Shown in pieces: positions 1 to 13,265 of a stretch of DNA of 64,000 nt (positions are counted from its first letter, which is position 1; the number at the start of each line of letters is the position of its first letter). The notes beneath the pieces are model-generated. The model was given only the letters and a program-made list of their open reading frames with translations. It ran no database searches and was not told the DNA's origin. A program made the translations under genes and the position numbers. Location of the stretch: positions 1 to 64,000 of the IMG/VR virus record IMGVR_UViG_3300042541_000805. One strand, written 5' to 3'. Origin of the DNA: a virus.

Positions 1-24
1 ATCTTGATACGGTGTGTCAGCCAT
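1..24 (-). CDS. Portal protein, N-terminal fragment cut by window edge
   Basis: This is the first eight codons (MADTPYQD) of the portal gene that is complete at 61299-63749. It is present twice only because the window runs past one genome length. The start codon is at 24-22, in the same context as the full gene. Confidence 0.85.
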
Positions 25-48
25 TAATTATTATTTTACTAATATTCA

Positions 49-56
49 CAAAGATA
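49..56 (-). promoter_or_regulatory. TAnnTTTG -7 box for portal operon (left copy)
   Basis: The box reads TATCTTTG on the minus strand, 24 nt before the portal ATG. It is the same site as 63774-63781, seen again in the terminal repeat. Confidence 0.55.
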
Positions 57-74
57 GTGAAAAAATGTCAAAGG

Positions 75-365
75 TTATTTTTTAGTAGATTTACCATCTT
101 TACCCTGACGAGCTCTATTTGAACCTTGTGCCTCTTTAACTAGCTTTCCAGATTTAGTGTGGCTCATATCTTTTCCATCACCAACTTTACTTCCAGCTAC
201 TTTATTAGCTTTATTCAAACCATCTCGGTATTTAATACGTTCAGGTGTTGCATGGTACTCTTTATTGTACTCATTCTTTTTTTTACGTGCTTCAGGATTG
301 TTAGCAAAATACTTTGCTGACTCAGACTTACCTGTTGATTTACCTGCTAATGTGTTACGTGCCAT
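75..365 (-). CDS. Small, very basic phage protein (96 aa)
   Basis: The product is hydrophilic and Lys/Arg/Asn-rich with no membrane segment. A central stretch (about residues 24-50) has alternating basic and aromatic residues (KKKNEYNKEYH, PERIKYRDG), and the tail is KDGKSTKK. I recall similar short basic proteins beside virion genes in other large phages, but cannot name a family. A role in DNA or capsid binding is inference from charge and position before the portal. The ATG is only 4 nt after a TATCTTTG box, so the mRNA is probably leaderless. The second copy at 63800-64000 differs at three residues (K/R, V/L, D/N). Confidence 0.75.
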   Translation of the reverse strand: MARNTLAGKSTGKSESAKYFANNPEARKKKNEYNKEYHATPERIKYRDGLNKANKVAGSKVGDGKDMSHTKSGKLVKEAQGSNRARQGKDGKSTKK

Positions 366-369
366 GCGA

Positions 370-377
370 CAAAGATA
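370..377 (-). promoter_or_regulatory. -7 box, predicted leaderless promoter
   Basis: TATCTTTG on the minus strand matches the Bacteroidota consensus TAnnTTTG. Four bases separate it from the ATG at 365, so transcription should begin at or within the start codon. Confidence 0.65.
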
Positions 378-660
378 AGTAATTTAACTAATACTCCGAA
401 AAAGGTTTGAGGTTTGTGGTAAGTAAAAGATGTTTAACTCCCCTCCCCTCAAAGAAAAGGAATTAAACACTAATACTTACTCTAATACTCGTCAAATAGG
501 AATCGGATATGTAGGCTGTTAAGGGGAAGATGTTTGGCAGCCCTTCTTAACATTTAAAAGTTCGTTATAGATACTGCTATATACAGATGGCGTTAGCCTC
601 ACCTTGTACACCCATAGAGTCAATTGGTTTATGCTTAAAGCTAACCTTATTTCTTGGGGC
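378..660. other. Non-coding, hairpin-rich stretch
   Basis: I see no convincing gene here. Three foldable pieces are visible. Arms 432-441 and 459-468 (GTTTAACTCC / GGAATTAAAC) pair with one mismatch. Arms 517-526 and 541-552 pair as TGTTAAG+GGG with CCC+CTTAACA around a 2-nt bulge. GTTAGC at 592-597 pairs with GCTAAC at 640-645. It lies between a strong minus-strand terminator and the promoter of the 75-365 gene. It may be an RNA of its own or a leader; the strand is not determined. Confidence 0.4.
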
Positions 661-692
661 AAAAAAAAACCCTAAAGTCGCATCTTTAGGGT
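661..692 (-). terminator. Rho-independent terminator of the RNA locus
   Basis: A perfect 9-bp stem (ACCCTAAAG / CTTTAGGGT) with a 6-nt loop is followed on the minus strand by nine T. It would end a minus-strand transcript coming from the tmRNA and folded-RNA genes upstream. Confidence 0.85.
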
Positions 693-825
693 CGGGAGTA
701 AATAAATAATAAAATATATTTAAACCGTTCCCGAAGATATATGCGACTATTTTCGGAAATAAGTTCTGCAAATATACAAAATAATATTTTATATATCCAA
801 ATTTAATTTATACTACAAATCCAAA

Positions 826-916
826 AACCCCGCTAGGGACTTGCACACACCCGAAGGTGAAGGATTAACAATATTCTTGTGCGAACAAAACTGACCCATT
901 CATCCCTAACGGGGTT
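826..916 (-). ncRNA. Unidentified structured RNA (about 91 nt)
   Basis: The ends pair over 14 bp: AACCCCGTTAGGGA at the 5' end with TCCCTAGCGGGGTT at the 3' end, read on the minus strand. The one non-Watson-Crick position is G-U on this strand but would be C-A on the other, which favours minus-strand transcription. Inside is CACC-UUCG-GGUG, a stem capped by a C(UUCG)G tetraloop (again only on the minus strand), enclosed by a GCACA/UGUGC helix. The 3' arm runs into UUUUU. It lies 52 nt downstream of the tmRNA on the same strand and before the shared terminator. I tried to read it as a tRNA, hammerhead, SRP or known riboswitch and none fit. Confidence 0.65.
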
Positions 917-968
917 CTTGATCTATGTAGCAAAAGTGCAAATATAAAAAAAATAAATTATTTTATAG

Positions 969-1259
969 TGGATCTGGAGGGATTCGAACCCTCGTGTCGT
1001 TACACATCCATATTATAGAGTTTTTACAAGGTTATTGGGGTTGCTTAGAACAACCACTCCACCACTTGGTTTAAAGTTCCAAGAAACTTAACATTAGGCT
1101 GCTAACTTGTATTCTACAGTATTAGCTTCAACGTGAGCAAGGATATCCTCGATACCTACACTCGATAATTCTGGTTTGCCATTTAATTGTTTGCAACAAA
1201 AGCCTGTTGCCACTCCTTGTCTATAATACTTACTTGCCCGATCGATTCCAGTCAGACCC
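969..1259 (-). ncRNA. ssrA: Transfer-messenger RNA (tmRNA)
   Basis: tmRNA rescues stalled ribosomes and tags the nascent protein for proteolysis. The 5' end GGGTCTG (1259-1253) pairs with the 3' CAGATCC (976-970), giving seven pairs including G3-U70, the alanine identity element; the discriminator A is at 969. The T arm is GAGGG-TTCGAAT-CCCTC (993-977). The P2 helix pairs TATTATAGA (1228-1220) with TCTATAATA (1019-1011) and continues as CAAGG/CCTTG after a bulge. A GCAACA/TGTTGC hairpin sits at the PK1 position. Other hairpins (CTTGG/CCAAG, GGTTG/CAACC) follow the tag frame. CCA is not encoded (CTA follows the discriminator). At 291 nt it is shorter than the E. coli RNA (about 360). No smpB-like gene is seen, so host SmpB would be needed. 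Confidence 0.9.
1094..1180 (-). other. Predicted tmRNA proteolysis-tag reading frame
   Basis: The frame ending EYKLAA-stop (TAA at 1096-1094) gives the LAA end typical of ClpXP-targeting tags. Read back to a GGC (Gly) resume codon 12 nt after the PK1-like hairpin, the tag would be 28 residues, beginning GKPELSS. Glycine resume codons are usual in Bacteroidota tmRNAs as I recall them. A competing resume codon one base later (GCA at 1179) would give ANQNYRV and then a stop. The LAA frame is preferred because of its C-terminus; the exact resume codon is inference. Confidence 0.6.
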
Positions 1260-1308
1260 ATGCAACAAAAATATAAAAAACATTCGAATTAGAAAAAGTT
1301 ATTTTAAG

Positions 1309-1316
1309 TAAATTTG
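1309..1316 (+). promoter_or_regulatory. -7 box, predicted leaderless promoter
   Basis: TAAATTTG lies three bases before the ATG at 1320. It sits just outside the tmRNA 5' end on the opposite strand, so the two units diverge here. Confidence 0.55.
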
Positions 1317-1319
1317 GGA

Positions 1320-1745
1320 ATGACAACAATAGTAGCAGAATATAGATATATCCCTTTTGGAACAAAGGTTAACATTGTGATTACCAATGATATAACAGAG
1401 GCTGTTAAACTTTACGATAAGGACTACGATGAAACCTTAGATTATTCTACTTGGGTTGCATCCTTTATAGAAGGAGAAGGAAGTTGTTGCTATTTAGTAT
1501 TTAAACCAAATCTTACCATATCTGATATTATACATGAAACCACACATATGGTTCAGTTTGTAATGAAGTACCATTTCGTGCACCTAGCAGACGATTACGA
1601 TGAGAATATGGCTTATGGTATCTCTTATTGGTCAGAGCTTGTTATAGCGACTCTAATAAGGGAAACAGAGCATATATCTCCTTGGATTAGAGAACAGGCT
1701 CAAACTCAGCTTTACGATTCAATCGGAAATATGCCCCAACTCTAA
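1320..1745 (+). CDS. Small HExxH zincin-like phage protein (141 aa)
   Basis: A predicted metallopeptidase-type fold with HETTH at residues 72-76, followed by DENMAYG about 20 residues later; E95 there could be the third zinc ligand. Short proteins with 'ISDIIHE.TH' followed by an E/N-x-AY segment are widespread in phages and usually unannotated. The substrate is unknown. An upstream in-frame TTG at 1314 overlaps the -7 box, so I start at the ATG 3 nt after it. The last 59 bases overlap the end of the convergent gene 1687-2262. Confidence 0.7.
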   Translation: MTTIVAEYRYIPFGTKVNIVITNDITEAVKLYDKDYDETLDYSTWVASFIEGEGSCCYLVFKPNLTISDIIHETTHMVQFVMKYHFVHLADDYDENMAYGISYWSELVIATLIRETEHISPWIREQAQTQLYDSIGNMPQL

Positions 1746-2262
1746 TCTTTTGTTGGATTACATCATATCCTCCAAAGAACATAGTATTAGAATACTTTGG
1801 GATATATAAACCATCTACAGATAGTGAAACTTGTTTGCTATTAAATAGTACTGAAGAGCCTACTGCAAAGGTTGGTTTTACTTTAGGTGCAATAAATACA
1901 GTCTTGGTAATGAATTGATCCATAATATCAATAGAAGCCATTCTAGCAATAATCATATTTTGGGTAACTCTTTCTTTTATTGCAACAGTTGCCTTATCAA
2001 AACGAATAGTATCTATATACTCTGAAGTAGCATAGAACTCATTAATAACGTGTGATGTATCTACATTATTAATAATGGTATCTGTATAATACTTAGTCAC
2101 CGGGACTAACTTAGTAATATATTTAGTTTGGGTAGGTCTAGCCACATACATTGTATCTATTTTAGTTTTAACGACTTCTATAGAAACTTCTTTATTACAG
2201 CTTTGTTGTAAAAGAATAAATCCTAATATGGTAGCAACTACCCAACCTAATATACTTTTCAT
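1687..2262 (-). CDS. Membrane-anchored phage protein with predicted periplasmic domain (191 aa)
   Basis: Residues 1-22 form a signal anchor (GWVVATILGFILL) ending in QQSC, a weak lipobox, so it is either a lipoprotein or a single-pass anchor. The rest is rich in Thr/Val/Ile beta-type segments. The C-terminus (VGSSVLFNSKQVSLSVDGLYI... FGGYDVIQQKIRVGAYFRL) looks like outer-membrane beta strands. I do not recognise the family. An envelope or lysis role is inference. The start overlaps the stop of the upstream gene by one base (TAATG), so translation is probably coupled. Confidence 0.7.
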   Translation of the reverse strand: MKSILGWVVATILGFILLQQSCNKEVSIEVVKTKIDTMYVARPTQTKYITKLVPVTKYYTDTIINNVDTSHVINEFYATSEYIDTIRFDKATVAIKERVTQNMIIARMASIDIMDQFITKTVFIAPKVKPTFAVGSSVLFNSKQVSLSVDGLYIPKYSNTMFFGGYDVIQQKIRVGAYFRLNRKAEFEPVL

Positions 2263-2540
2263 TATTTTAAATTCATTAATATGATTGAAAATTGTTCTTG
2301 TAGTTTTTTAATCTGCTCTTTAATCTCTACGATATTTTCAGCATCTGTTTTAGTATCTTCTTTTGATTTTAATACATAATTAGCAATAGCATCTCCAGTC
2401 ATATTTGTTGCAGACACAGAAGCGATATTTTCTTCATCCTTTGCAAATACGTGTGCATACTTTTCTAAACAAGCACCACAAGGTGACTCGCATTCACAAT
2501 GTTCTAACTTTGCGATTTCTTCAATTTTTAGGTCTTTCAT
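2262..2540 (-). CDS. Cys-cluster coiled-coil protein (92 aa)
   Basis: Four cysteines at residues 15, 17, 21 and 24 (HCECESPCGACLEKY) could bind a metal. The C-terminal third (about 65-92) is a Lys/Glu/Leu coiled coil. It is the middle gene of a three-gene minus operon (2640 to 1687). It is not a family I can name. Confidence 0.65.
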   Translation of the reverse strand: MKDLKIEEIAKLEHCECESPCGACLEKYAHVFAKDEENIASVSATNMTGDAIANYVLKSKEDTKTDAENIVEIKEQIKKLQEQFSIILMNLK

Positions 2541-2640
2541 AAACGATTTTTCTAATTTTAGCTACAATTAAATTTAATTTATTTTCTAATGCTTTTTTTT
2601 CTAACATCAAGGTTTCCAATTCTTTAACCGATTTTCCCAT
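2521..2640 (-). CDS. Short coiled-coil protein (39 aa)
   Basis: MGKSVKELETLMLEKKALEN begins an almost continuous amphipathic helix with leucines at heptad spacing. It overlaps the next gene by 20 nt. The start is the first ATG in frame 17 nt downstream of a TATATTTG box. The function is unknown; it could partner the coiled coil of the 2262-2540 product. Confidence 0.5.
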   Translation of the reverse strand: MGKSVKELETLMLEKKALENKLNLIVAKIRKIVYERPKN

Positions 2641-2657
2641 ATTCTTATCATTAAGCC

Positions 2658-2665
2658 CAAATATA
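2658..2665 (-). promoter_or_regulatory. -7 box for the 2640-1687 operon
   Basis: TATATTTG on the minus strand, 17 nt before the ATG at 2640. It is back to back with the plus-strand box at 2700, so about 75 bp hold two divergent promoters. Confidence 0.55.
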
Positions 2666-2699
2666 GAAATTTTTATTTGATATATATAAAATATTATTT

Positions 2700-2707
2700 T
2701 ACCTTTG
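2700..2707 (+). promoter_or_regulatory. -7 box, predicted leaderless promoter of groES
   Basis: TACCTTTG, then six bases, then ATG at 2714. A TTTG lies about 20 bp upstream, within the AT-rich run ending at 2699, as a possible -33 element. Confidence 0.6.
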
Positions 2708-2713
2708 TTAAAT

Positions 2714-2983
2714 ATGGAACCAAATGTTAGATTATTAGGTGATACTGTTTTAGTTAAAGCAGATAACTTACCAATTGAAAAAACAGAAGCAGGAATCTAT
2801 TTACCTGAGAAACTTCGTGATAAGTACATAACAGGAACAATCTTAGCAACTGGCGATGATGTAAAGCAAGTAGAGCACAACTGCAAGGTGGTGTTTGAAA
2901 AATCATTATGCAGAGAAACTGTTATTATGGGCGAACCGCTATTCATTATCAAAGAAAATCAAATCTTATATAAATTAGTATGA
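2714..2983 (+). CDS. groES: GroES-type co-chaperonin (89 aa)
   Basis: It should cap a GroEL ring to assist protein folding in the cytoplasm, probably with host GroEL since no phage GroEL is present. The start VRLLGDTVLVK matches the 'PLGDRVLVK' opening of Cpn10, and TEAGIYLPEK matches the mobile-loop GGI(V/Y)LP motif that contacts GroEL. GTILATGD and the final LFIIKENQILYKL match the last beta strands. It is slightly shorter than bacterial GroES (about 95 aa). An in-frame TTG at 2705 overlaps the promoter box, so I use the ATG. Phage homologues such as T4 gp31 help fold the capsid protein; this role is inferred here. Confidence 0.85.
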   Translation: MEPNVRLLGDTVLVKADNLPIEKTEAGIYLPEKLRDKYITGTILATGDDVKQVEHNCKVVFEKSLCRETVIMGEPLFIIKENQILYKLV

Positions 2984-3114
2984 AACAATTCAAATCACTT
3001 AGAAGATCATTAAGAAGAGGTAAGGCTAGACTTATCCCTGATGTATTAGGAATGCGTATGCATATCCAACGCAGAACAGGTAGAGGTACATGGCAGACCG
3101 TATCATCAATGTAA
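2980..3114 (+). CDS. Arg-rich mini-protein (44 aa)
   Basis: It starts within the stop of groES (ATGA overlap), so it is translationally coupled. Eleven of 44 residues are Arg, mainly in LRRSLRRGKAR and IQRRTGRG. Nucleic-acid binding is likely from composition; nothing more specific can be said. Confidence 0.55.
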   Translation: MKQFKSLRRSLRRGKARLIPDVLGMRMHIQRRTGRGTWQTVSSM

Positions 3115-3136
3115 ATTTATAAACTAAACATATTAT

Positions 3137-4198
3137 ATGAAAATTCACGTACCCAGAGTAAGATTATCAGCAAAAGAATATGAACTTTTGCAACAACTGA
3201 GAGGGAAAGAAATAGAAAGCGAAGAATCACACGAAGCATTAAAAAATTACTGCGAAGAGAATCAAATTCCATTTACTAACGTGAACCATTATTGGCACAA
3301 GGGTAAAAACTTCTCACTACACGTGAAGAATGATTTACAGCCAACATATATGGAAATGAGAGATGACATCATCTCAGAAATGAAAGCCTATGCACCAGAA
3401 TATAAAACGATTTCTAGACAATCTACAAATACAGATTCACACCTTTTTGTTGTGGATCCTGCGGATATTCATGTAGGCAAACTTTCAAAGTCTTTTGAAG
3501 TTGGTGCTGAATACAATGCAGAGATTGCTGTTAATAGAGTAAATGAAGGCGTAGAAGGGCTTGTGCAGAAATCAGCAGGATTCTCTATTGATAAGATATT
3601 ATTAATTATTGGTAACGATGTATTGCATACCGATAACCCAAAAAGAACGACTACAGCTGGTACATCTCAAGATACCGATGGTATGTGGTATGAAAACTTC
3701 ATTAAAGCTAAACAAATGTATGTGGATATAATCGAAAGGTTATTATCTATAGCAGATGTGCATATTGTTTTTAATCCATCAAACCACGATTATATGTCAG
3801 GGTTCTTCTTGGCTGATTCAATCTATTCTTGGTTTGCTAAATGTGAAAACGTAACGTTTGACGTTAGTATCGTACATCGTAAGTATTATAAGTACCATAA
3901 CAATCTTATTGGTTCTACGCATGGCGATGGAGCTAAAGAGGCAGATTTGCCATTATTGATGGCTCATGAAGCATCAGAGCATTGGGCTAGTTGTAAACAC
4001 AAGTATATTTATACCCACCACTTGCACCATAATAGGTCTAAGGACTATATGGGTGTTAATATCCAGATCATGAGAAGCCCTAGTGAAGCAGATGCTTGGC
4101 ATATGAAAGCAGGCTATGCTCATGCACCTAAAGCAGTTGAGGCATTTTTACATCATAAGATACATGGTAGGATTGCATCCTTCTGTCATATCTTCTAG
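3137..4198 (+). CDS. Calcineurin-like metallophosphoesterase (353 aa)
   Basis: A dimetal phosphoesterase. The five-block signature is visible in order: DPADIHVG (D-x-H, D110/H112), IGND (159-161), NPSNHD (the GNHD block), GSTHGD, and IYTHHLHH (the GHxH block). The first 90 residues are a helical extension. Such enzymes are common in phages and could act on nucleic acids or nucleotides; the substrate is not known. It is third in the groES unit, 22 nt after the previous stop. A 7-bp GGAAAAA/TTTTTCC hairpin at 4200-4222 follows the stop. Confidence 0.85.
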   Translation: MKIHVPRVRLSAKEYELLQQLRGKEIESEESHEALKNYCEENQIPFTNVNHYWHKGKNFSLHVKNDLQPTYMEMRDDIISEMKAYAPEYKTISRQSTNTDSHLFVVDPADIHVGKLSKSFEVGAEYNAEIAVNRVNEGVEGLVQKSAGFSIDKILLIIGNDVLHTDNPKRTTTAGTSQDTDGMWYENFIKAKQMYVDIIERLLSIADVHIVFNPSNHDYMSGFFLADSIYSWFAKCENVTFDVSIVHRKYYKYHNNLIGSTHGDGAKEADLPLLMAHEASEHWASCKHKYIYTHHLHHNRSKDYMGVNIQIMRSPSEADAWHMKAGYAHAPKAVEAFLHHKIHGRIASFCHIF

Positions 4199-4223
4199 TG
4201 GAAAAAGAAATTCGGTTTTTCCG

Positions 4224-4231
4224 TATCTTTG
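4224..4231 (+). promoter_or_regulatory. -7 box, predicted leaderless promoter
   Basis: TATCTTTG three bases before the ATG at 4235. It heads a run of four tiny genes. Confidence 0.65.
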
Positions 4232-4234
4232 TAT

Positions 4235-4363
4235 ATGGCAAAAACAAAATCCCCCTCAAAGTCTGCTAAGGCAGAAAAAGTAAACTTTGGAAAGCGTAAA
4301 GGCGGCAAGGCTGCTAAGGCTAAGAATAAACAAGAGAAACCTTATAATCGTCAAGGAAGATAA
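4235..4363 (+). CDS. Lys-rich mini-protein (42 aa)
   Basis: MAKTKSPSKSAKAEK is followed by a G/K-rich segment (GKRKGGKAAKAKNKQ), histone-tail-like in composition. It is supported by the promoter immediately upstream and the 1-nt TAATG overlap with the next gene. DNA compaction is inference. Confidence 0.6.
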   Translation: MAKTKSPSKSAKAEKVNFGKRKGGKAAKAKNKQEKPYNRQGR

Positions 4364-4632
4364 TGGCAAAACAAGTTGATAAATCAAAAATGAAGTGTAA
4401 CTCTCCAAAGAGTACACCATCTCATCCAAAGAAATCTCACATTGTTAAGGCGTGTGCTAATGGGAAGGAAAAAATTATTAGATTTGGTCAGCAAGGCGTA
4501 AGTGGTGCAGGAGCTAATCCTAGCACACCAAAAGAAAAGGCTAGACAGAAATCATTCAAGGCTAGACACGCATCAAATATTGCTAAAGGTAATATGTCTG
4601 CGGCTTATTGGAGCGATAAAGTGAAATGGTAA
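4363..4632 (+). CDS. Conserved basic phage protein, KSFKARH...YWS type (89 aa)
   Basis: It has the pattern HPKKSHIVKACANGKEKIIRFGQQG, then KARQKSFKARHASN, and ends AAYWSDKVKW. I recall this arrangement (a PKK...K.IRFG block, then K(S/A)F.ARH, then a terminal YW) from small proteins in cyanophages and large DNA viruses, where the function is unknown. It starts one base into the previous stop. Confidence 0.7.
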   Translation: MAKQVDKSKMKCNSPKSTPSHPKKSHIVKACANGKEKIIRFGQQGVSGAGANPSTPKEKARQKSFKARHASNIAKGNMSAAYWSDKVKW

Positions 4633-4654
4633 ACAATTTAAAATATATACAACT

Positions 4655-4792
4655 ATGAAAAAAATGGAATCCAAAAAGGAAGAAATGAAAGAAATGAAAA
4701 TGTCTAAAAAGGCATACATGGCTAAAGAAATGAAAGAAGGTAAAAAGTCTACCTCAATGACAAAGGCTGGTAAAAAAATGTACAAAAAATAA
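4655..4792 (+). CDS. Lys/Met-rich mini-protein (45 aa)
   Basis: Repeated K-x-M-K units (EEMKEMKMSKK, AKEMKEGKK) form a charged helix with high Met content. It lies 22 nt after the 89-aa gene in the same unit. The function is unknown. Confidence 0.5.
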   Translation: MKKMESKKEEMKEMKMSKKAYMAKEMKEGKKSTSMTKAGKKMYKK

Positions 4793-4794
4793 TC

Positions 4795-4842
4795 ATGGCA
4801 AAAAAAATGACCAAAGGTAAAGGAACCAAGAAAGGTTGCTAA
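4795..4842 (+). CDS. Possible 15-aa basic peptide
   Basis: MAKKMTKGKGTKKGC, two bases after the previous stop and 8 bp before the terminator. It shares the MAKKM/KGK composition of its neighbours. Too short to be sure it is translated. Confidence 0.3.
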   Translation: MAKKMTKGKGTKKGC

Positions 4843-4849
4843 CCATAGC

Positions 4850-4879
4850 AAAAAGCCTCATAGAGATATGGGGCTTTTT
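4850..4879. terminator. Bidirectional terminator between convergent units
   Basis: AAAAAGCCTCAT (4850-4861) pairs with ATGGGGCTTTTT (4868-4879): a 12-bp stem with one G-U and a 6-nt loop. A- and T-runs on the flanks serve both directions. The terminase stop codon (4880-4878) touches the stem. Confidence 0.8.
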
Positions 4880-6884
4880 AATTATTAATATCTACCTTAT
4901 ACATCCTAAGCATAGGCTTCTCTACTTTCTCTACTTCCTTCTTTTTAACTACATCCTGCCACGCAAGTAATGCATATCCAAATGCCATGAATCCGTCATA
5001 CGCTGTACGATTGTTTGGATCAAACCTCCTGCATTGGTCAAGTAGCCTTAAACTATAGATATGCTCGGTAAACTCATCCATAAACATCTGAGCTATCTCA
5101 TTCATCCTATTAGCAGCAAACTTATTCTGACCTGATACGCCATACTTATTTTTACCTGACTGCGTTACTTTAGTATTCTTAAAATTAGATCTGGGAATAG
5201 CAGCATCTGGAGTTTCCTTCAAGTACCCTTCAAATCCCTGCTCTATAAACCAATCGACTACTGTAGATGGCGTTGTTTCCGTATTAACCTCACACGAATA
5301 AAACACACACGCTTTTAAGTAATCCTCATGTAGCTCATTTACCGTCTTAGGTCTATGCAAGTATACCACATCAACTATTGCGGTATTCTCTGGGTCGTTA
5401 GGATTATACTTATTAATAATTACAAGTGATCCGTCAGAGGCATCACGCTTATCCTTAAAGTCTGAAGAAGAAAATGGATCGGCTCCTGCAATATATTCAT
5501 GTTGCATCATTGGCTTAATCTTACGCATCTCTAATTTCTGTGCATTAGGATTCTTAGGCATACGAAGGATTTCAAATCTACCATTCTGCACCGGGACTGC
5601 TTTCACACTCTTACCATATTCCACCCAAACTAAATCATACATATTCATTAGCGGTGTAGCCTGCAACTTAATAAAGTTCTCTTGTGCCCTTATTCTTTCC
5701 TCATCAAATAGACATACGCCACTCATTGATGATAACGCCTCATCCTCAGTAAATGGAAACTGACGGATATGCTCATTGAGTCCTTGAATATCATTATTCT
5801 CAATGTATGACCTCCTGATCTCTTCAAGCTCTACCTTAGATTCCTCTACTAAAGAGAAACCAAACTCATCCATCTTGTATCCATCGTATGCAGGAGAAAA
5901 GTATCTGTATACGCCTGAGGCTGTACGACCATTATATAATTTATTAGGATTAGATTTCTCCCAAATAATTTTAAATGCATCCCCTGCTTTTTTATTACCT
6001 GACGATGTCTTATCATTATCTACCTCTCCGACAGTTGACGTAATATAAGTAATCCCTACACGCTTACCTAACTTAGTTAAACAAGTCTTTACAACCTCAA
6101 AGTATTTTGAGAAGTCTACATCTGCTGACCACTTAGCGGTTTCGTCAATAAACAAAAAACGCATACGCTGACCATCATAGGAGTTGACTGCTGTATTCTT
6201 CCACGACACAATTGTATTCAGCCCTGTCGTAGTTTTTTTAGTAGTAGTACCATCAGCTTTTTTTGAACGCTTAGGAGGCTCTGCAAAGATTAATTCTCTT
6301 ACGGGCTTGTCATTACCAGCAACGGTAGGTTTAAGGAAGTCAGGCAGGTTATAAACACCATTGACAACCATTTGTGAGAATATCATCCTAGCGTCATCTC
6401 CAGTCTTAGAAACAATACCAATTTTTTGGAACTTTTCTGAGATACCAATATAGGCAGCAATAGATGATGCAACAGAAGATGAACCACGTCTACGGAACTT
6501 CATGTACAGCATCCCTAAACATTTATCATCCTTCTCACAGATATCCCAAAAATAAAATAGTCTTCTATCGGCATCACGAAAGTCAGGGTATGTTCCATCT
6601 TCTAGCACCCACCATTGTAAAAAGAAATAGTGTTTCCCGGTTAGGTAGTACGGCTTACCATTAATCATTAGCCATAAACCATTATCAATCTTATCGAATT
6701 CTTTTTCTACGAATAGCTCCTGATCTGATACGGCAAGGTTATCCCAACCATCAGGTAAGGGTGTACGTTCCCACTTCTGCTGCTTTTTAGATAGCTCATT
6801 ATTCATAATATCTTTTAGAGCTGGTTGTACAGGCAAAATATATTCAAAGTCCCCATATATCTTTTCTCTATTGCGTTTTGCCAT
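4878..6884 (-). CDS. Large terminase subunit (668 aa)
   Basis: The ATPase-nuclease motor that packages DNA through the portal. The N-terminal ATPase has RRRGSSS (131-137) where the Walker A lies; this lacks the usual GK-T/S ending and is an Arg-rich variant. Walker B is FLFIDE (243-248). The nuclease half starts at YIAGADPFSSSDF (first catalytic Asp). Its last acidic motif is in NNRTAYDGFMAFGYALLAW near the C-terminus. The length fits tailed-phage enzymes with both domains. It overlaps the upstream winged-helix gene by 17 nt. It ends inside the bidirectional terminator. Confidence 0.9.
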   Translation of the reverse strand: MAKRNREKIYGDFEYILPVQPALKDIMNNELSKKQQKWERTPLPDGWDNLAVSDQELFVEKEFDKIDNGLWLMINGKPYYLTGKHYFFLQWWVLEDGTYPDFRDADRRLFYFWDICEKDDKCLGMLYMKFRRRGSSSVASSIAAYIGISEKFQKIGIVSKTGDDARMIFSQMVVNGVYNLPDFLKPTVAGNDKPVRELIFAEPPKRSKKADGTTTKKTTTGLNTIVSWKNTAVNSYDGQRMRFLFIDETAKWSADVDFSKYFEVVKTCLTKLGKRVGITYITSTVGEVDNDKTSSGNKKAGDAFKIIWEKSNPNKLYNGRTASGVYRYFSPAYDGYKMDEFGFSLVEESKVELEEIRRSYIENNDIQGLNEHIRQFPFTEDEALSSMSGVCLFDEERIRAQENFIKLQATPLMNMYDLVWVEYGKSVKAVPVQNGRFEILRMPKNPNAQKLEMRKIKPMMQHEYIAGADPFSSSDFKDKRDASDGSLVIINKYNPNDPENTAIVDVVYLHRPKTVNELHEDYLKACVFYSCEVNTETTPSTVVDWFIEQGFEGYLKETPDAAIPRSNFKNTKVTQSGKNKYGVSGQNKFAANRMNEIAQMFMDEFTEHIYSLRLLDQCRRFDPNNRTAYDGFMAFGYALLAWQDVVKKKEVEKVEKPMLRMYKVDINN

Positions 6885-7356
6885 TTTTTAATCTATTAAT
6901 TTTACTATACTTCTTTGCTGTATAAATAGCACCTTCTAGTCGTGTATATAAATTCTCTCCTTTATCTGTAAGGTAGAAATAAACTCTTTTCCTTTTATAG
7001 CTTACCTCTACAGCATCTATGTATCCGTACTCTCTCATTTGTGAAATAACTTCATAGAACTTATTCTTTCCTGAGTGAAACCTTGACATAAATTGTGCCG
7101 AAGTAAATTTACCTACTTCCTTTGCATAGGTAATAGTAGCTACATGGTATATATCTAGTTTACGATTAATTCTTCGTAGCTCGTGTATAGCAGATATGGT
7201 TGTTGTTATATCTACAATATTCTTCCCATTGTTTACGCTGTTAAGCTGTTTAATCTTAACCTCAGCAACAGCAAGTTTACGTTCTATCGATTTACGTATC
7301 TCGTATTCCTTCTTATACTTTTGTTCAAATCGGTTTAACTTTTTTTTAAAGTCCAT
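6868..7356 (-). CDS. Coiled-coil plus winged-helix protein, possible small terminase (162 aa)
   Basis: Residues 1-45 form a charged coiled coil; residues 60-145 look like a MarR-type winged helix (FTSAQFMSRFHSGKNKFYEVISQMREYGYI, then a beta hairpin KRKRVYFYLTDKGENLY). Its position directly before and overlapping the large terminase suggests the DNA-recognition subunit, but a transcription regulator would look the same. Upstream it abuts the 7356-7967 gene, sharing one base. Confidence 0.5.
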   Translation of the reverse strand: MDFKKKLNRFEQKYKKEYEIRKSIERKLAVAEVKIKQLNSVNNGKNIVDITTTISAIHELRRINRKLDIYHVATITYAKEVGKFTSAQFMSRFHSGKNKFYEVISQMREYGYIDAVEVSYKRKRVYFYLTDKGENLYTRLEGAIYTAKKYSKINRLKNGKTQ

Positions 7357-7967
7357 TACTTCTTTTTACCTTCTTTTTCTGCATTGCGTTGTGCTCTGCG
7401 TTCAGCGAAGTTTATCTTCTCCTCCAAAGGTTTAGATTTCTCCCCTTGTTTAACCAGATCCAAAATATCAAACTCCCCAAATTGTTTATCAAATTCTTCA
7501 CGTATAATTTTTAATTTGTTGTACATTTCAAATGCATTCTCAGCCGCCTTAGCGATACCTTCATATGCAACTTTTTCTTGAGCCTCATCTACTTCCATAG
7601 GTTTGGTTCTTGCTTTCTCTAACAGGTTACTAAATGCCTCATCAAGTGAAACGTAAATTTCAATGACAGGGTTATTAGTAACTGTAAAGAACAATGATAC
7701 AGCCCACCTCAGCTCTTCTAACTGATTACTCTGGATAGCACCTCCGACATCTTTAATGTCTAAAATTTGTAGTGCTTGTGATTTTCTTTCCTTTAGTAGT
7801 ATGCTAAAGATTGGGCTGTGAGAATCATACACTAAACAAGCGTATCGAAATAGCTTATCGGTAAATGGATCCTCAAGATTTTTATATATAGCGAGTTGCG
7901 GATATTGCTCTATTAATACACCCTTACATAAAGGGTCGTACCTCATTTTACTTGTGTCGACTGTCAT
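7356..7967 (-). CDS. Conserved phage protein of unknown function (203 aa)
   Basis: A soluble, mixed alpha/beta protein. The last 60 residues are a charged helix (KINFAERRAQRNAEKEGKKK at the end). The start is chosen at the second ATG of ATGTATATG because GGAGG lies six bases before it; the first ATG directly abuts that motif. A clear Shine-Dalgarno is uncommon in this window. It overlaps the upstream gene by 20 nt. No family recognised. Confidence 0.65.
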   Translation of the reverse strand: MTVDTSKMRYDPLCKGVLIEQYPQLAIYKNLEDPFTDKLFRYACLVYDSHSPIFSILLKERKSQALQILDIKDVGGAIQSNQLEELRWAVSLFFTVTNNPVIEIYVSLDEAFSNLLEKARTKPMEVDEAQEKVAYEGIAKAAENAFEMYNKLKIIREEFDKQFGEFDILDLVKQGEKSKPLEEKINFAERRAQRNAEKEGKKK

Positions 7968-8559
7968 ATACATCCTCCTTATTTAAGTAAACGAAATCAA
8001 TATCAAAGTTACTACCTCTCATTTTGTAATACTTCTTTCCATCAATGTAGATGTCATAGTCTGAGTTTGGTGAGTAGCGAAACCTATCGCCTACCTTTAC
8101 CTCTTTTACTTTAGGTGCTACAGCTACAGCATCGGCAATTAATTTAAGTTCATCAGGATTTGCTTTAAGCATTAGTCCACTTGCAGAAATATAATTAGAC
8201 TCATGCTCCATTACAGGCTCAGAGATAACATACTCATTAAAGGCATCCATTGATCCGTCATCATTCAGACGAAAGAATACCTGTCCTTGATGTATCATGC
8301 ATAGCTCTTTACCATCAGCGTGTACTCTGTTATTTTTATCAAGCATAAAGTGATGGCAATAAACTAAATCACCATCTTTAATGTTATACTCTTCAGCAAA
8401 TTTTGGGGGGCATGAATAGACTCTACCACGCATCACCATAAGCCTGCGGGTATTATCTCGATTGGTTTCAATATAGATATCTATATCACCTAGTTTTCTT
8501 TTTGAATTTTCATCAAAATCTACATCTATAAAAAGATGCTCATTCTTAGCCTTTAACAT
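7948..8559 (-). CDS. GroES-like fold protein, possible second co-chaperonin (203 aa)
   Basis: The C-terminal 45 residues (KVKEVKVGDRFRYSPNSDYDIYIDGKKYYKMR, then SNFDIDFVYL) match the end of GroES: 'VKVGD.V.F......V.IDGEEYLI.RESDILAI'. A similar pattern occurs earlier (IKDGDLVYCHHFMLDKNN..HADGKELCMIHQGQVFFRL), so two Cpn10-like halves may be fused. No clear mobile-loop GGIVL is seen. It is twice the length of normal GroES. It could act in folding of virion proteins; this is inferred from the pattern only. Confidence 0.45.
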   Translation of the reverse strand: MLKAKNEHLFIDVDFDENSKRKLGDIDIYIETNRDNTRRLMVMRGRVYSCPPKFAEEYNIKDGDLVYCHHFMLDKNNRVHADGKELCMIHQGQVFFRLNDDGSMDAFNEYVISEPVMEHESNYISASGLMLKANPDELKLIADAVAVAPKVKEVKVGDRFRYSPNSDYDIYIDGKKYYKMRGSNFDIDFVYLNKEDVYDSRHK

Positions 8560-8582
8560 ATATTTATAATTTACTTGTACTC

Positions 8583-8822
8583 TTAGAATTCAAACTCCAC
8601 CAATACCTTTTGGCGGATAAATGATTTCCATATTTTTGCTTCTCCATCCATACCTTTAGCATAGATATCGTATTTGTCAATATTAAACTTTGTTAAGTAT
8701 TCCATGTCTAATGATATCTCTACAATTGTAATTGAGCCATCCTTAGATTTAAACGATTGGTTCTTTTGGTAGGACATACCAAATTCATAATTCCCAATAG
8801 TGATCTTGCGTATCCTATTCAT
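8583..8822 (-). CDS. Hypothetical protein (79 aa)
   Basis: Mostly predicted beta strands with charged turns (ITIGNYEFGMSY, ITIVEISLDMEYL, VLVEFEF). Four-base overlap (ATGA) with the upstream gene 8819-9235. No recognised family. Confidence 0.6.
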   Translation of the reverse strand: MNRIRKITIGNYEFGMSYQKNQSFKSKDGSITIVEISLDMEYLTKFNIDKYDIYAKGMDGEAKIWKSFIRQKVLVEFEF

Positions 8823-9235
8823 ATTTTATTTTCTATAATTAATGTTAATACTCTTGCTGCATCCATAAACGCCCAAAACTCTGCCTCCATTCTTTGCTTA
8901 AATGCTAGGCTCATATTGGTAGCCTCAAAGTCATCTATGCTAAAAGTGAATAGTCCTTTCTCCTTACCATGGTTAATTGTAAAGATGCTAATCTTGATAC
9001 CATAAGAATCAAAGAACTCATACAGATCCCTTTGCATCCAGATATCTAAATCTTCCTCACCTTCAAACTCGTAATCAATTTCTAGGATACCACCTTCTTC
9101 TTCGGAGATAGATACTTCTACATTTATAGAACCTTCCGCATCGTAGGGTTCCTTTAAAAATTTTAGAAGTTCTTCATATGCAACAGGATATTTCTCTTGC
9201 ATAATCTTGAAGGTTAAATAGAATGTTTCTGACAT
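8819..9235 (-). CDS. Acidic hypothetical protein (138 aa)
   Basis: Rich in Glu/Asp (ISEEEGGILEIDYEFEGEEDLDIW). It has a central beta segment and a helical C-terminus (MSLAFKQRMEAEFWAFMDAARVLTLI). Reads into the next gene by a 4-nt overlap. Acidic DNA-mimic-like composition is noted but a function is not inferred. Confidence 0.6.
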   Translation of the reverse strand: MSETFYLTFKIMQEKYPVAYEELLKFLKEPYDAEGSINVEVSISEEEGGILEIDYEFEGEEDLDIWMQRDLYEFFDSYGIKISIFTINHGKEKGLFTFSIDDFEATNMSLAFKQRMEAEFWAFMDAARVLTLIIENKI

Positions 9236-9276
9236 AGCTTTACTTTAAGTCACAAATATAACAATAATTGTGACAG

Positions 9277-9561
9277 TTAACCTGTGTACTCTTCCCAATC
9301 AGTAGCAAGGATATCAATAGATTTAAACTCATATCCAATAATCTCGCTATCGTTTGTCTTTGCAACGAAGTAAGGTGCTTGAGTTATCTCAGATGTACCA
9401 CCGTTGAATAGTCCCACAGGGATACCATCAATCTTTGCGGTTGTTACTTTAGCATAGTCAGTAGTACCTAGCACTAACTCAACTCTAGTTTGAGCTGACC
9501 AGATTTTTCTACGCATCTGTTTGTTTAACTTCATTATTTCGATTGCTTCTAATACGTTCAT
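9277..9561 (-). CDS. DUF2829-family protein, Tad2-type anti-Thoeris candidate (94 aa)
   Basis: The N-terminus MNVLEAIEIMKLNKQMRRKIW fits the DUF2829 pattern 'F.eAl..lk.Gk.v.R..W', with W21 conserved. The C-terminus SIDILATDWEEY fits the closing 'tDllA.DW'. The length matches single-domain members. Thoeris anti-defence protein Tad2 is a member of this family and sequesters the Thoeris nucleotide signal; not all members are shown to do so. The middle (TDYAKVTTAKIDGIPVGLFNGG) is less typical. It lies with other small genes (4-nt overlap with the upstream gene) between the replication-initiator-like gene and the packaging genes. Confidence 0.65.
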   Translation of the reverse strand: MNVLEAIEIMKLNKQMRRKIWSAQTRVELVLGTTDYAKVTTAKIDGIPVGLFNGGTSEITQAPYFVAKTNDSEIIGYEFKSIDILATDWEEYTG

Positions 9562-9773
9562 ATACCGTTTATTTTTCTTGTTAGTTCTACTTTTAATACT
9601 TTAATCTTATCTGCTGCTGCCGGGAACTCTCTGTTCTTGCAGTTAAAAAATGTACGCTTCATGCGATTAAGCAAAAATACATCATTTTTATCATAGTTCT
9701 CAGGCACTACTACATCCTTTACTTTGTATGTTGCTTTACCTGATTCTATTGTCCAATCGGATAGGTAACTCAT
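9558..9773 (-). CDS. Hypothetical protein (71 aa)
   Basis: Small, basic, with NRMKRTFFNCKNREFP in the centre. Four-base overlaps on both sides tie it into the 10415-to-4878 operon. No recognised family. Confidence 0.55.
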   Translation of the reverse strand: MSYLSDWTIESGKATYKVKDVVVPENYDKNDVFLLNRMKRTFFNCKNREFPAAADKIKVLKVELTRKINGI

Positions 9774-9994
9774 TTCTTACGCATACTTAGCGTTTCAAAG
9801 TCAAAGATAAAGTCATTAGGGTCATGCTCTAGGTTTAACCTTTTCATAATCTTATAGTACACCTCTATGTTTGATCTACGTATCTCGCAGTCAGGTTCAT
9901 GATCCTTCGCCACTACTACTTTACCTTCCATTAGGTCTTGTATCGCCTTATCAATAATTTTAGTCGTCTTCCCTGTGTATCTGTTTTGTTTCAT
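9770..9994 (-). CDS. Small P-loop-like protein (74 aa)
   Basis: MKQNRYTGKTTKIIDKAIQD resembles a degenerate Walker A (G-K-T-T) opening, followed by a beta strand (KVVVAKDHEP), as in short 'GRTTR/GKTT' phage proteins. It lacks the rest of an ATPase. I start at the ATG at 9994 rather than the TTG two codons earlier. It overlaps the upstream gene by 35 nt. Confidence 0.5.
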   Translation of the reverse strand: MKQNRYTGKTTKIIDKAIQDLMEGKVVVAKDHEPDCEIRRSNIEVYYKIMKRLNLEHDPNDFIFDFETLSMRKK

Positions 9995-10415
9995 TGTCAA
10001 AATTTAAATTTGGTGTTATTGGTTTTTTCATATATGCTTTAATCATATTCTTTTTAGTCTGCTTATCACCATACCAAGCTATATCAGCAGGTATCTTTAG
10101 TTGATCCCCGTCTTTAATTATTACTCCTATTTTTAGTAATTCTTTTGTTAGCTTCCATACCTTCTGCCTATCAATCTTTAGCTTCTTGCGTATATCTTCC
10201 TTGTGTATATTTGATAGCTTTAACCTATCATCGTTATAGGTAAGGTACATTACAAGTTCATTGAAGTATTGAATAGCTTGTACAGAGTTGGTACTAAAAA
10301 GTTTCTTTAAACAAGTCTTAGAAATAATATAAAACTCATCATACTTTTCTCTAACAAATGGGATATATACATTATTCCCATCCATGTCTTCTAGCTTCCT
10401 AATTCCTCTTTTCAT
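9960..10415 (-). CDS. Winged-helix protein resembling plasmid/phage replication initiators (151 aa)
   Basis: Residues about 30-130 have the layout of RepL/RepA-type winged helices: a helical part (STNSVQAIQYFNELVMYL), a recognition region (IHKEDIRKKLKIDRQKVWKLTKELLKIGVIIKDG) and then LKIPADIAWYGDKQTKKNM. The ADIAWYG block is like the 'NP.IAW.G' segment of such initiators. Three inverted repeats lie 66 bp upstream of its start, as iterons or operators would. A regulator is the main alternative. The start is the ATG 19 nt after a TACATTTG box; the open frame upstream of it overlaps the promoter. Confidence 0.5.
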   Translation of the reverse strand: MKRGIRKLEDMDGNNVYIPFVREKYDEFYIISKTCLKKLFSTNSVQAIQYFNELVMYLTYNDDRLKLSNIHKEDIRKKLKIDRQKVWKLTKELLKIGVIIKDGDQLKIPADIAWYGDKQTKKNMIKAYMKKPITPNLNFDNETKQIHREDD

Positions 10416-10434
10416 ATCATTAATTAACGTATTA

Positions 10435-10442
10435 CAAATGTA
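10435..10442 (-). promoter_or_regulatory. -7 box for the 10415-4878 operon
   Basis: TACATTTG on the minus strand, 19 nt before the ATG at 10415. The repeat array 10481-10543 lies just upstream, where a regulator or initiator could act on it. Confidence 0.6.
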
Positions 10443-10480
10443 CAAATAAAAATGACAAAGATTAACATTGTTAATAAAAT

Positions 10481-10543
10481 GTAGTCCCACAAGACTACTG
10501 CGGTAGTCCCACAAGTACTACTTTGGTAGTCATACAAGACTAC
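10481..10543. repeat. Three tandem inverted-repeat sites (iteron or operator array)
   Basis: Three copies of GTAGTC-n6-GACTAC start at 10481, 10503 and 10526. Copy 1 is perfect with spacer CCACAA; copy 2 has one extra base in the right arm; copy 3 has spacer ATACAA. The 22-23 bp period is about two helical turns, so the sites face the same side of the DNA. Confidence 0.8.
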
Positions 10544-11395
10544 AAATAAGGGCTAACTACTTGATAATCATATACCCTCTATATCTTATCTATACCTTAA
10601 ATGTTATTAATTATTATTTGTAATAGATTATTTTAATGCGTAAGCATTAGAGTAAGCTATGTCTTATGCTTAAACCTATTATTATATATCCCCTTATTCA
10701 TAGTCATTCGGTTTTTAGGGGTGGTGCATGATTTGGTTTGGATAACCTGAGTGGGGTCATATCTCATCTGTAATGATAAAAGTATATGTAAGGTAGGTAA
10801 TCATACCAACTGATATGTTAAATGTCTTAGAGGGGCTTATTTTAGTTTGTAATTAGATATTAGGGATTATTAATTTCTTTTTAGAATTAAGTAGTAGGGA
10901 TTCCACCACCACCAGCCGGCCACCCTGATCCGGTCAGAAATCGTTTTTGAGCATCGGAGTGGGGTCAAATTCAGAAGAAAATGTAGCAGTTTTTATGTCA
11001 ATTCAACCCCCTTGTATAGCAAATATGACTATCCGAATAGTTGTTTTTGGTTTTGTAACTTGCTGACTATCAATGATTTTTAAATAAATTTCGTGGTGTT
11101 AATTATACTACCGATATTTGTGGTGTTGAGTAAGGGATAACACAAGACACAACACACGATGGATATCGCTAGTCCTCATATAATCCCAACAATCAATAGG
11201 TACTTGTTAATTACACCTTTAAGAATAACTAATTAACCGATTGAGTAAGTCCAACACATATGGCATCAACGCATTCAATAAAAACAGCGAAAGCTATCTA
11301 ATGATGTGATATCAGCAGATGTAGTAAGTAGTGGTAGAATAGGGATTGAAAAGTTACAACATTGATGAGTCTTCGATATTGTTTTAGTGAGTTGA
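10544..11395. other. Non-coding divergence region, candidate replication origin
   Basis: About 850 bp without a credible gene between the minus and plus gene blocks. It holds an AT-rich stretch with a TAATGC-GTAA-GCATTA hairpin near 10635, two direct copies of GAGTGGGGTCA (10749-10759 and 10957-10967), and a short GC-rich island with GCCGGC (about 10916). Together with the adjacent repeat array and initiator-like gene it is the best origin candidate. No clean DnaA-box cluster was seen. Confidence 0.45.
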
Positions 11396-11466
11396 AATAG
11401 GCTCACATTAATGATACAAATACAATAGGTATGGTACAAGCATTGGTTCGATTCCAATGCCTATTG
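11396..11466 (+). other. tRNA-like element with acceptor and T arm only
   Basis: AATAGGC (11396-11402) pairs perfectly with GCCTATT (11459-11465). The T arm is ATTGG-TTCGATT-CCAAT (11442-11458). Total length is 71 nt, right for a tRNA. Between them I cannot build a D arm or an anticodon stem with U33, and no CCA follows (G then CTA). It may be a decayed tRNA, a tRNA mimic in an mRNA leader, or an insertion scar. Confidence 0.5.
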
Positions 11467-11538
11467 CTAAAAATATTAGCAAAAGCTGGTAATCAAATAC
11501 AAATAAATATATCATTTAAACACTCAAAAACAAAGATT

Positions 11539-11724
11539 ATGAATCCAAACACAAAAGAAATGCTAGATACATTGGATATGATTCTAGAGATTAAAACACA
11601 AAGAGAAGCAGATTTAATGGCACTATTAATTGAAGTTCAATACAAAGGTAGAATGTTCTATACCCTACTAAATAGAGAGTTAAAAGACAAAATAGAATTT
11701 ATTAATAACCAAAATAATTTATAA
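11539..11724 (+). CDS. Small helical protein, first of the plus-strand block (61 aa)
   Basis: An all-helical pattern with charged heptads (KEMLDTLDMILEIKTQREADLM). The ATG is preceded by ACAAAGATT, a leader also found at 11742 and 27373. The open frame upstream runs through the tRNA-like element and is rejected. No family recognised. Confidence 0.6.
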   Translation: MNPNTKEMLDTLDMILEIKTQREADLMALLIEVQYKGRMFYTLLNRELKDKIEFINNQNNL

Positions 11725-11741
11725 ACTTAAAAACAAAGATT

Positions 11742-12017
11742 ATGTTCCACAAAGCAAACAAACACTACACACATTTTGCAGTAATTAAAGGCACAAATGT
11801 AATCGTTAATGGATGGGATTATAGAGGCTCTGAAGATGATGACCACAAGTATTATGAGAAGATGGATATTGAAGATTTAGGTTATTATTATAAAGATGTA
11901 AAAGTATTATCTGCAAAGCATTTGATACGAAATAATGTCAATCCATATGACTATCAAAATTGGATTTTTGAACAAGAAAATCAACAAGAATTATTAGACA
12001 AATACATAAAATTTTAA
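11742..12017 (+). CDS. Conserved hypothetical protein (91 aa)
   Basis: It begins with a beta-rich part (HFAVIKGTNVIVNGWDYRG), followed by an acidic segment with three adjacent Asp (EDDDHKYYEKMD). I recall 'FAVI..TNKIVNGWDY' proteins in other Bacteroidota phages, without a function. It has the same ACAAAGATT leader as its upstream neighbour. Confidence 0.65.
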   Translation: MFHKANKHYTHFAVIKGTNVIVNGWDYRGSEDDDHKYYEKMDIEDLGYYYKDVKVLSAKHLIRNNVNPYDYQNWIFEQENQQELLDKYIKF

Positions 12018-12038
12018 TCACTAAAACCACTAAAAAAA

Positions 12039-12146
12039 ATGAAAAGACAATTAACAGATTTTGAAGATGCATTGCTAGGCTTTGCAGTTATTATTATTGG
12101 ATTCGGAGGATTTTATATCTTCTTATTAACTTACTTAAGCAAATAA
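12039..12146 (+). CDS. Single-span membrane mini-protein (35 aa)
   Basis: Hydrophobic residues about 12-32 (LLGFAVIIIGFGGFYIFLLTYL) form one transmembrane helix after a charged N-terminus. It sits in a tight run of small genes. The function is unknown. Confidence 0.5.
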   Translation: MKRQLTDFEDALLGFAVIIIGFGGFYIFLLTYLSK

Positions 12147-12152
12147 AAAAAG

Positions 12153-12323
12153 ATGAAAAACGAGTTACCACAATTCATAAAAATATGTGTAATGATTTTA
12201 CAAGGTGAAAAATCAAAATACGAAATTCAATTAATAATGTTGAAAGCATTAGTTGATAAAGAAATAAGACAAACGGAAGCCGAATTTTTAATTCAATCAT
12301 TAGAAGACTATAAACAAAAATAA
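12153..12323 (+). CDS. Small helical protein (56 aa)
   Basis: Two helices (residues about 5-32 and 36-54) with EKSKYEIQLIMLKALVDKEI in the centre. Six bases after the previous stop and two before the next start. Unrecognised. Confidence 0.5.
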   Translation: MKNELPQFIKICVMILQGEKSKYEIQLIMLKALVDKEIRQTEAEFLIQSLEDYKQK

Positions 12324-12325
12324 CT

Positions 12326-12520
12326 ATGAAAGCTACAAGAGAAAAAATGATGGAAATTACATTGGATGACATAAAAGATTTATCAATTATTATAGTTGAT
12401 AAAATGATTGAAGATGGTATAATAAAAGATTGTGATAATACGGATAACCAAACCGAATTTGAAACGCAAGATATTATAAGAGAAATTTTATGTAATAAAT
12501 TAAATATTCAAAATGACTAA
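12326..12520 (+). CDS. Acidic helical mini-protein (64 aa)
   Basis: A KATREKMMEITLDDIKDLS helix, then IIIVDKMIEDGIIKDCDN and an acidic tail. Overlaps the next gene by 8 nt. Unrecognised. Confidence 0.5.
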   Translation: MKATREKMMEITLDDIKDLSIIIVDKMIEDGIIKDCDNTDNQTEFETQDIIREILCNKLNIQND

Positions 12521-12854
12521 AAATATAAAAATGACATACAATCCATTTGATTTTGATTCGTGTATTAGATACATTGATGATAACAATATCACATTCGATA
12601 ACGCTAGAGATATCTTACAAAAACAAGATTTAGATTTCTTCGATGAAGATGAAGAAGTAAGAAAAATTGCATTGAAAAATGCTAGAAAGATGCTTAATTT
12701 TTACCACGATAAATATTACGATGCAATAAAAGATTATTGCAGAATTGCAGACACATCAACGATAGATGAAATACTTGGTAATTACTTTGAGTACAAAGAT
12801 ATGTACGAACAAGCTATATACGAAAGGATGGTAGAAAAGAATGGAAGAAATTAA
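12513..12854 (+). CDS. Acidic hypothetical protein (113 aa)
   Basis: Asp/Glu-rich and helical (FDFDSCIRYIDDNNITFDNARDIL, FFDEDEEVRKIALKNARKML). A second ATG six codons in is an equal start candidate. Its end overlaps the next small gene by 14 nt. Confidence 0.55.
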   Translation: MTKNIKMTYNPFDFDSCIRYIDDNNITFDNARDILQKQDLDFFDEDEEVRKIALKNARKMLNFYHDKYYDAIKDYCRIADTSTIDEILGNYFEYKDMYEQAIYERMVEKNGRN

Positions 12855-12930
12855 CGACATATCAGTTTACATTGCAGAGGCAATTGCTGATGATTTATAC
12901 AATTATTATTTAACCGAAATTTTAAATTAA
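12841..12930 (+). CDS. Mini-protein (29 aa)
   Basis: MEEINDISVYIAEAIADDLY, one acidic helix. Starts inside the preceding gene in another frame. Supported only by its fit between neighbours. Confidence 0.35.
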   Translation: MEEINDISVYIAEAIADDLYNYYLTEILN

Positions 12931-12940
12931 AAAAAAGAAA

Positions 12941-13234
12941 ATGGAAAATTTAAAAAACAAAAAAATCACAATGGCTACATTAAAATCGTTCATTAAAAAT
13001 GCAAACAATTTATTTGTAGAAACAAAGTCAAGGTTTAATGGAATGTTTGATGGAATAGAGTATTTTAAAGATACTGAAATGATACAAATTGAAAAGGCTG
13101 ATGCAATAGGATACAAGGGTGTTTATTGCGTAGGTCGTAGCAGAGATTATTTTACATACAAAGAGAAAGATGGATACATTGGTATACAAGTATCAAATGC
13201 TTGTGGATGCGAAATTTTATGGACAAAAATATAA
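12941..13234 (+). CDS. Hypothetical protein (97 aa)
   Basis: N-terminal basic helix (LKNKKITMATLKSFIKNANNLF), then a domain with three Cys (GVYCVG..., NACGCEILW). I recall 'MATLKSFIKKN...LFI.V.S.FDGM.D' proteins in other Bacteroidota phages, without a known role. Internal ATG at residue 11 is an alternative start. Confidence 0.6.
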   Translation: MENLKNKKITMATLKSFIKNANNLFVETKSRFNGMFDGIEYFKDTEMIQIEKADAIGYKGVYCVGRSRDYFTYKEKDGYIGIQVSNACGCEILWTKI

Positions 13235-13265
13235 TTAAATAACTAACCTTAAATTAAAAAACGAA

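Follow-up and report, generated by a model that had tools for sequence, protein, structure and literature searches.

The stretch of viral DNA studied here (the window: 64,000 nucleotides of a 64,054-base virus record) encodes, on the minus strand at 969-1259, a one-piece phage tmRNA. In bacteria, RNAs of this type release ribosomes that have become stuck and mark the incomplete protein for destruction. We consider the one found here quite likely to be an active tmRNA of a phage of Flavobacteriia, whose structure and 28-codon tag frame are shown below, and which would be charged by the host AlaRS, resume translation at GGC and pass the rescued protein, with its 28-residue tag, to proteases of the ClpXP type, presumably to the benefit of the phage. 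Phage tmRNAs are of course already known; what appears to be new is the conserved long-tag form, and its presence in many flavobacterial phages. The original prediction of a short, one-piece, phage-encoded tmRNA with a long tag has been borne out by an Rfam match, by covariation and by its place in a virus record, whereas its remark that such genes are rarely reported is outdated, since a survey found tmRNA in 402 of 18,146 phage genomes and proposed the tagging of host proteins (PMC9004378).

Identity and fold of the tmRNA

The tmRNA family RF00023 is the sole Rfam match within the 64 kb, at 966-1259 on the minus strand (55 bits, E 7.5e-19, against a gathering cut-off of 47 bits), and sister copies score 48.4 and 55.3 bits. 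ARAGORN, the other search named in the original prediction, called neither a tmRNA nor a tRNA in the window, so the gene stands outside any tRNA array; on the sister copy L282, which is 92% identical to the window's, the same program does report one, and gives it precisely the tag of 28 residues. The parts of the molecule are collected in Table 1. Predicted from the letters and found again here are the length of 291 nt, the frame ending in LAA and a stop, the acceptor stem with its G3-U70 pair, the T arm, the PK1-like hairpin and the lack of an encoded 3' CCA (CUA follows the discriminator A), while P2 is indeed a long helix in two parts, with 10 + 5 rather than the supposed 9 + 5 base pairs.

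Table 1. Parts of the phage tmRNA and its upstream sequence, in window coordinates
Feature	Position	Strand	Support
Phage tmRNA (ssrA), 291 nt to discriminator base, CCA not encoded	969..1259	-	RF00023, 55 bits; covariation in four copies
Acceptor stem P1, 5' strand GGGUCUG, pairs with 970-976; G3-U70 alanine identity pair	1253..1259	-	
Acceptor stem P1, 3' strand CAGAUCC; discriminator A at 969	970..976	-	
P2 helix, 5' strand (10 + 5 bp)	1215..1229	-	
P2 helix, 3' strand (1010-1019 + 1027-1031)	1010..1031	-	
PK1-position hairpin GCAACA/UGUUGC	1193..1210	-	C-G to U-A compensatory change
Tag frame: resume codon GGC 1178-1180, 28 codons GKPELSSVGIEDILAHVEANTVEYKLAA, stop UAA 1094-1096	1094..1180	-	
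Hairpin within tag-frame end: GCUAA/UUAGC, inner UGUA/UACA	1101..1126	-	Invariant between copies
Single downstream module: stem CUUGG/CCAAG, GUGGUGGAG, stem GGUUG/CAACC; host PK4 position	1039..1083	-	G-C to A-U compensatory change
T arm GAGGG UUCGAAU CCCUC	977..993	-	G-C/A-U compensatory change
TATTTTTG, matching Bacteroidota -7 box TAnnTTTG, 6 nt upstream of tmRNA G1	1266..1273	-	

Covariation was followed across four distinct copies, namely the window (identical in 3300042381_000191), 3300042567_000926, 3300020043_005467 and 3300042377_000359. All 52 assigned base pairs are kept in all four (208 of 208 cells paired), and in controls with slid partners pairing falls to 36-43%. Four pairs change on both sides, one each in PK1, the T stem, the downstream stem and the seven-pair acceptor stem P1, where L282 has C-G in place of U-A. 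Among 34 relatives with related tags, the equivalents of the long P2, the T stem and the downstream stem covary widely, and the third acceptor pair is G-U in 33. The hairpin at the PK1 position is backed by a compensatory change and would be the first part of a putative pseudoknot. PK2 to PK4 are common in tmRNAs, although they are known to vary; here PK2 and PK3 appear to be absent, judging from the spacing in host-type sequences, because there is no room for them between the stop codon and the downstream module. The minimum free energy of the tmRNA by itself is uninformative (z -1.6). As a promoter-box candidate the -7 match is suggestive only: three of the four window-group copies have it, which are near-identical and thus count as one event, and L282 does not.

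A different structured element lies close by, at 810-932 on the minus strand, about 100 nt long with a long closing stem (AACCCCGUUAGGGA/UCCCUAGCGGGGUU) and a folding z of -5.75 against shuffles; it is missing from 3300020043_005467, which keeps the tmRNA, so the element is separate from it.

The tag frame

The window's resume context, UUAAAUGGCAAACC, places GGC in the AAAYGGC setting of Bacteroidota host-type tmRNAs, whose contexts are closely similar at GGC (for example, UCAAAUGGC and UCAAAUGGCGAAAAC), and the same context recurs in the phage tmRNAs of cr10_1 (UUUAAAUGGCAAU), phi38:1 (UUUAAACGGAAAC) and L182, among others; it is this sharing with host-type and phage tmRNAs that sets the 28-codon frame. 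The chance of an open frame of 28 codons at such composition is 14%, so it is the comparisons, and not the openness of the frame, that support the tag. Among the four copies only two tag sites vary, and both changes are synonymous in the 28-codon frame (2 synonymous, 0 nonsynonymous), as against 0 synonymous and 2 nonsynonymous in either alternative frame; variable columns number 2 of 87 in the tag and 20 of 203 in the rest of the gene (Fisher P 0.028). An AUG within UUAAAUGGC was considered as a start codon and ruled out, since phi38:1 and L042 have AAACGG there. A tblastn search with the 28-residue tag against phages gave no match.

The phage, its host and the movement of the gene

Portal and terminase of the window phage show about 30% identity to their counterparts in Cellulophaga phage phi38:1 and the Flavobacterium elemoviruses (29% for the portal against one of the Callevirus kind), and this likeness makes a member of Flavobacteriia the probable host. 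Megablast of window positions 1-20000 against phage records gave zero matches, and blastn against plasmids gave short matches only, nearly all within the T arm. On the plus strand, the window also encodes a 143-residue protein, divergent neighbour of the tmRNA, with a zinc-peptidase-like HETTH (HExxH) motif and no Pfam match (1314-1745), a GroES/Cpn10 homologue (2705-2983; PF00166, 41.9 bits) and a C5 cytosine DNA methyltransferase (17238-18323; PF00145).

The tmRNA gene is mobile. The phage that carries L282 has a portal just 31% identical to the window's, and this, set against 92% identity in the tmRNA, reflects a recent horizontal exchange of the intact gene. In a close relative, 3300021961_000116, flanks that are 92-98% identical enclose no tmRNA and hold an HNH_3 endonuclease gene in its place (L027 7489-7947), so the tmRNA is accessory and dispensable. 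SmpB is encoded in none of 40 phage records (the window and 39 others), and these phages would therefore depend on that of the host.

Long-tag relatives in other phages

We scanned IMG/VR with a pattern in which UAAAYGGNAAN precedes codons that spell A-(Q/H)-(I/V)-E-A-N, and it matched 81 viral contigs. At 79 of the 80 places that were read there is a long tag in tmRNA-like context, with 28-45 residues and 43 distinct peptides in all; 41 of the 42 complete distinct tags end in AA or VA, an ending that the pattern did not demand, and phi38:1 is the exception. Most have the core A-Q-[IV]-E-A-N-M, which host-type tags lack, and outside the window's own group the core is followed by conserved residues that were likewise not in the pattern (M, then N/S/T, V, and F or H). 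L032 and L036, which came in through a pattern search, contain tRNAs only, and we take their ANTVEY peptide as a coincidence; two places from a scan of genome contigs for the 3'-domain motif were also rejected as not tmRNA.

Several of these phages are in culture, and they belong to Callevirus, Crassvirales and Fipvunavirus. The Cellulophaga phages phi38:1 and phi40:1 share a 30-residue tag and are identical over the gene, phi14:2 has a 38-residue tag (GNDTDNTQLKANMTVVHNILNGSDALIGSSVQKLAMVA; Rfam 46 bits, just below the cut-off), and a tag of 35 residues (58 bits) occurs in 29 phage records from Flavobacterium psychrophilum, Fpv20 among them. Except for Calle, the records mark nothing at these loci, or hypothetical proteins. 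The unannotated tmRNA of phi38:1 (L319 1501-1862; KC821614 26803-27164), with its tag end VGV rather than AA, overlaps gp041, a probably spurious CDS on the opposite strand. Neither phi14:2 nor Fpv20 has a match to the window's portal. The 35-residue relatives have a pN/pS of 0.58 in the tag frame, as against 1.0 and 1.37 in the other two frames, and relatives with longer RNAs (up to 439 nt) keep long tags too. Among other phage tmRNAs, some have different long tags that lack the core (for example, GNVNIHNKKEKGAKVFNLARTIARPSYVRVAA), and in others the tag is short, as with GDTELKMAA; the tag of the crAss-like phage cr128_1 appears to be GNTYRAAA. For Maribacter phage Panino, ARAGORN predicts a permuted tmRNA (L164 1498-1830; tag GKVMNVSFAPTVRQFA) whose Rfam score lies under the cut-off.

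Where the window stands with respect to this family needs some care. Its tag shares the Gly resume codon in UAAAYGGN and a length of at least 28 residues, and contains AHVEAN, a possible diverged form of the core; because the pattern had been designed to let AHVEAN through, the recovery of the window in the scan proves nothing. Clear membership of the core family was not upheld by shuffle tests (peptide P 0.12; codons P 0.24-0.35), in which the window tag comes no nearer to the family than chance, and its kinship to the core is not statistically established. For the part after the stop the relation to the family is clear, with a local score of 52 against a shuffle maximum of 30 over a region that includes the T arm common to all tmRNAs. 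The architecture that we claim the window and the family have in common is thus a long tag, a Gly resume codon and one downstream module.

Comparison with known tmRNAs

Eight host-type Bacteroidota tmRNAs taken from IMG/VR contigs (about 395 nt; tag GENNYALAA or GETNYALAA) have in common with the window's a one-piece form, G3-U70, P2, GGC in an AAAYGGC-like context, a PK4-like UGGUGG module, an LAA end and an unencoded CCA. The window's RNA is shorter, at 291 nt, with 28 tag codons rather than nine and only one module after the stop. The tmRNA of phi38:1 and Calle_1 (Callevirus) is similarly phage-borne and in one piece, with a GGN resume codon and a long tag, and differs in its length of about 360 nt and its 30-residue tag with a VGV end (GNNTNAVNAQIEANMEAVNAILNLEVAVGV), of which ARAGORN reports only the last 22 residues. 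Those of the crAss-like phages cr10_1 and cr272_1 are also borne by phages of Bacteroidota and resume at GGC (AAAUGGCAA in cr10_1), but are permuted (two-piece) with tags of 14-15 residues. Compared by description, the tmRNAs of mycobacteriophages and phage G are likewise phage-encoded and full-length, in another host group (PMC4131195).

Tags of 8-35 residues have been described (PMC8012679), a range that includes the window's 28 and is exceeded by relatives here, which reach 45; the commonest length is 10 (PMC11915505). The Calle tmRNA has been counted without a tag (PMC8776804), and in the open-licence literature we found no account of long conserved tmRNA tags. In 62 long-tag regions, some of them cut by contig ends, ARAGORN gave the full tag once, a shortened tag 31 times and another result once, and missed the remaining 29. 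Since the standard finder misses or shortens almost all members, surveys have overlooked long-tag tmRNAs, and published phage tmRNA counts and tag lists are biased against them.

Weighing other readings

The original prediction had left the tag at either 28 or seven residues, and a ribosome resuming in the other frame would add ANQNYRV, which has no degron, so that ribosomes would be rescued and their peptides left stable. That frame begins GCA AAC CAG, resembling the E. coli start GCA AAC GAC, but two of the four copies change its CAG to CTG (Q to L), the G of AAAYGGC is where the tag begins in host-type and in all related phage tmRNAs, and ARAGORN picks the 28-residue frame in L282; together with the synonymous changes, these comparisons resolve the ambiguity in favour of 28 residues, and we regard the seven-residue tag as extremely improbable. 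Another thought is that the RNA is a decoy whose tRNA-like domain competes for SmpB and AlaRS and so reduces trans-translation in the host, a role reported for the TLD-only RNA of phage DS6A (TLD, tRNA-like domain), or else a leftover of an integration site, the tag frame being unimportant in either case. Its compactness, the seeming loss of PK2 and PK3 and its absence from one close relative would fit, but the tag frame is under purifying selection and the rest is folded with compensation; moreover, the RNA of DS6A consists of hardly anything beyond its TLD (PMC4131195), whereas the window gene is full-length and swapped intact between phages. A decoy or relic is, we think, very unlikely.

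Two further readings accept the long frame and differ on what it is for, and each of them strikes us as somewhat unlikely. The extra codons might act mainly as RNA, a spacer or structure replacing PK2 and PK3, with peptide content secondary. In the 35-residue group (for example, L182; tag codons 13-25) the core codons are nearly invariant even at synonymous sites, which may reflect an RNA-level constraint added to the peptide role, and hairpins can be drawn within the tag; against this stand the frame-specific synonymous bias, the long tags of relatives whose RNAs are themselves longer, and a tag-end hairpin that does not covary in the window group. Alternatively, the core might serve for docking, with a phage or host factor binding there and altering which protease takes the tagged proteins, or how fast. 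The core spans phages of unrelated families, and a 35-residue tag is predicted to form a single helix (mean pLDDT 76, a value of little weight for a lone peptide), but a PDB search with two tags gave no match to solved structures, the window's own likeness to the core is not significant, and the degron end is ordinary.

What the long tag may mean

In the active, host-charged tmRNA that we favour, G3-U70 would lead the host AlaRS to attach alanine, host SmpB would carry the molecule to ribosomes stalled on broken mRNAs, and translation would resume at GGC, giving the rescued peptide an alanine and then the 28 tag residues. An LAA end fits ClpXP-type recognition, so the tagged peptide would probably be sent to proteases of this kind. 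The likely benefit is that ribosome recycling and the clearance of truncated proteins would continue while host RNAs are degraded, and the long N-terminal part of the tag would be kept as peptide, possibly as a longer unstructured or helical lead, or as a docking site.

More tentatively, and with rather more doubt than conviction, we suggest that phages of Flavobacteriia have a distinct class of tmRNA, in which the tag, at 28-45 residues, has a conserved peptide module peculiar to phages that comes after the junction and ahead of an ordinary degron. Proteins rescued during infection might then be steered by a signal of the phage's choosing, and we suggest further that this module moves between unrelated phages. 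The finding bears on the question of why lytic phages carry a tmRNA of their own. The phage tag is strongly unlike that of the host, so tagging by phage and by host could be separated by mass spectrometry in infected cells, and a cultured phage-host pair with a long-tag tmRNA, Cellulophaga baltica and phi38:1, already exists.
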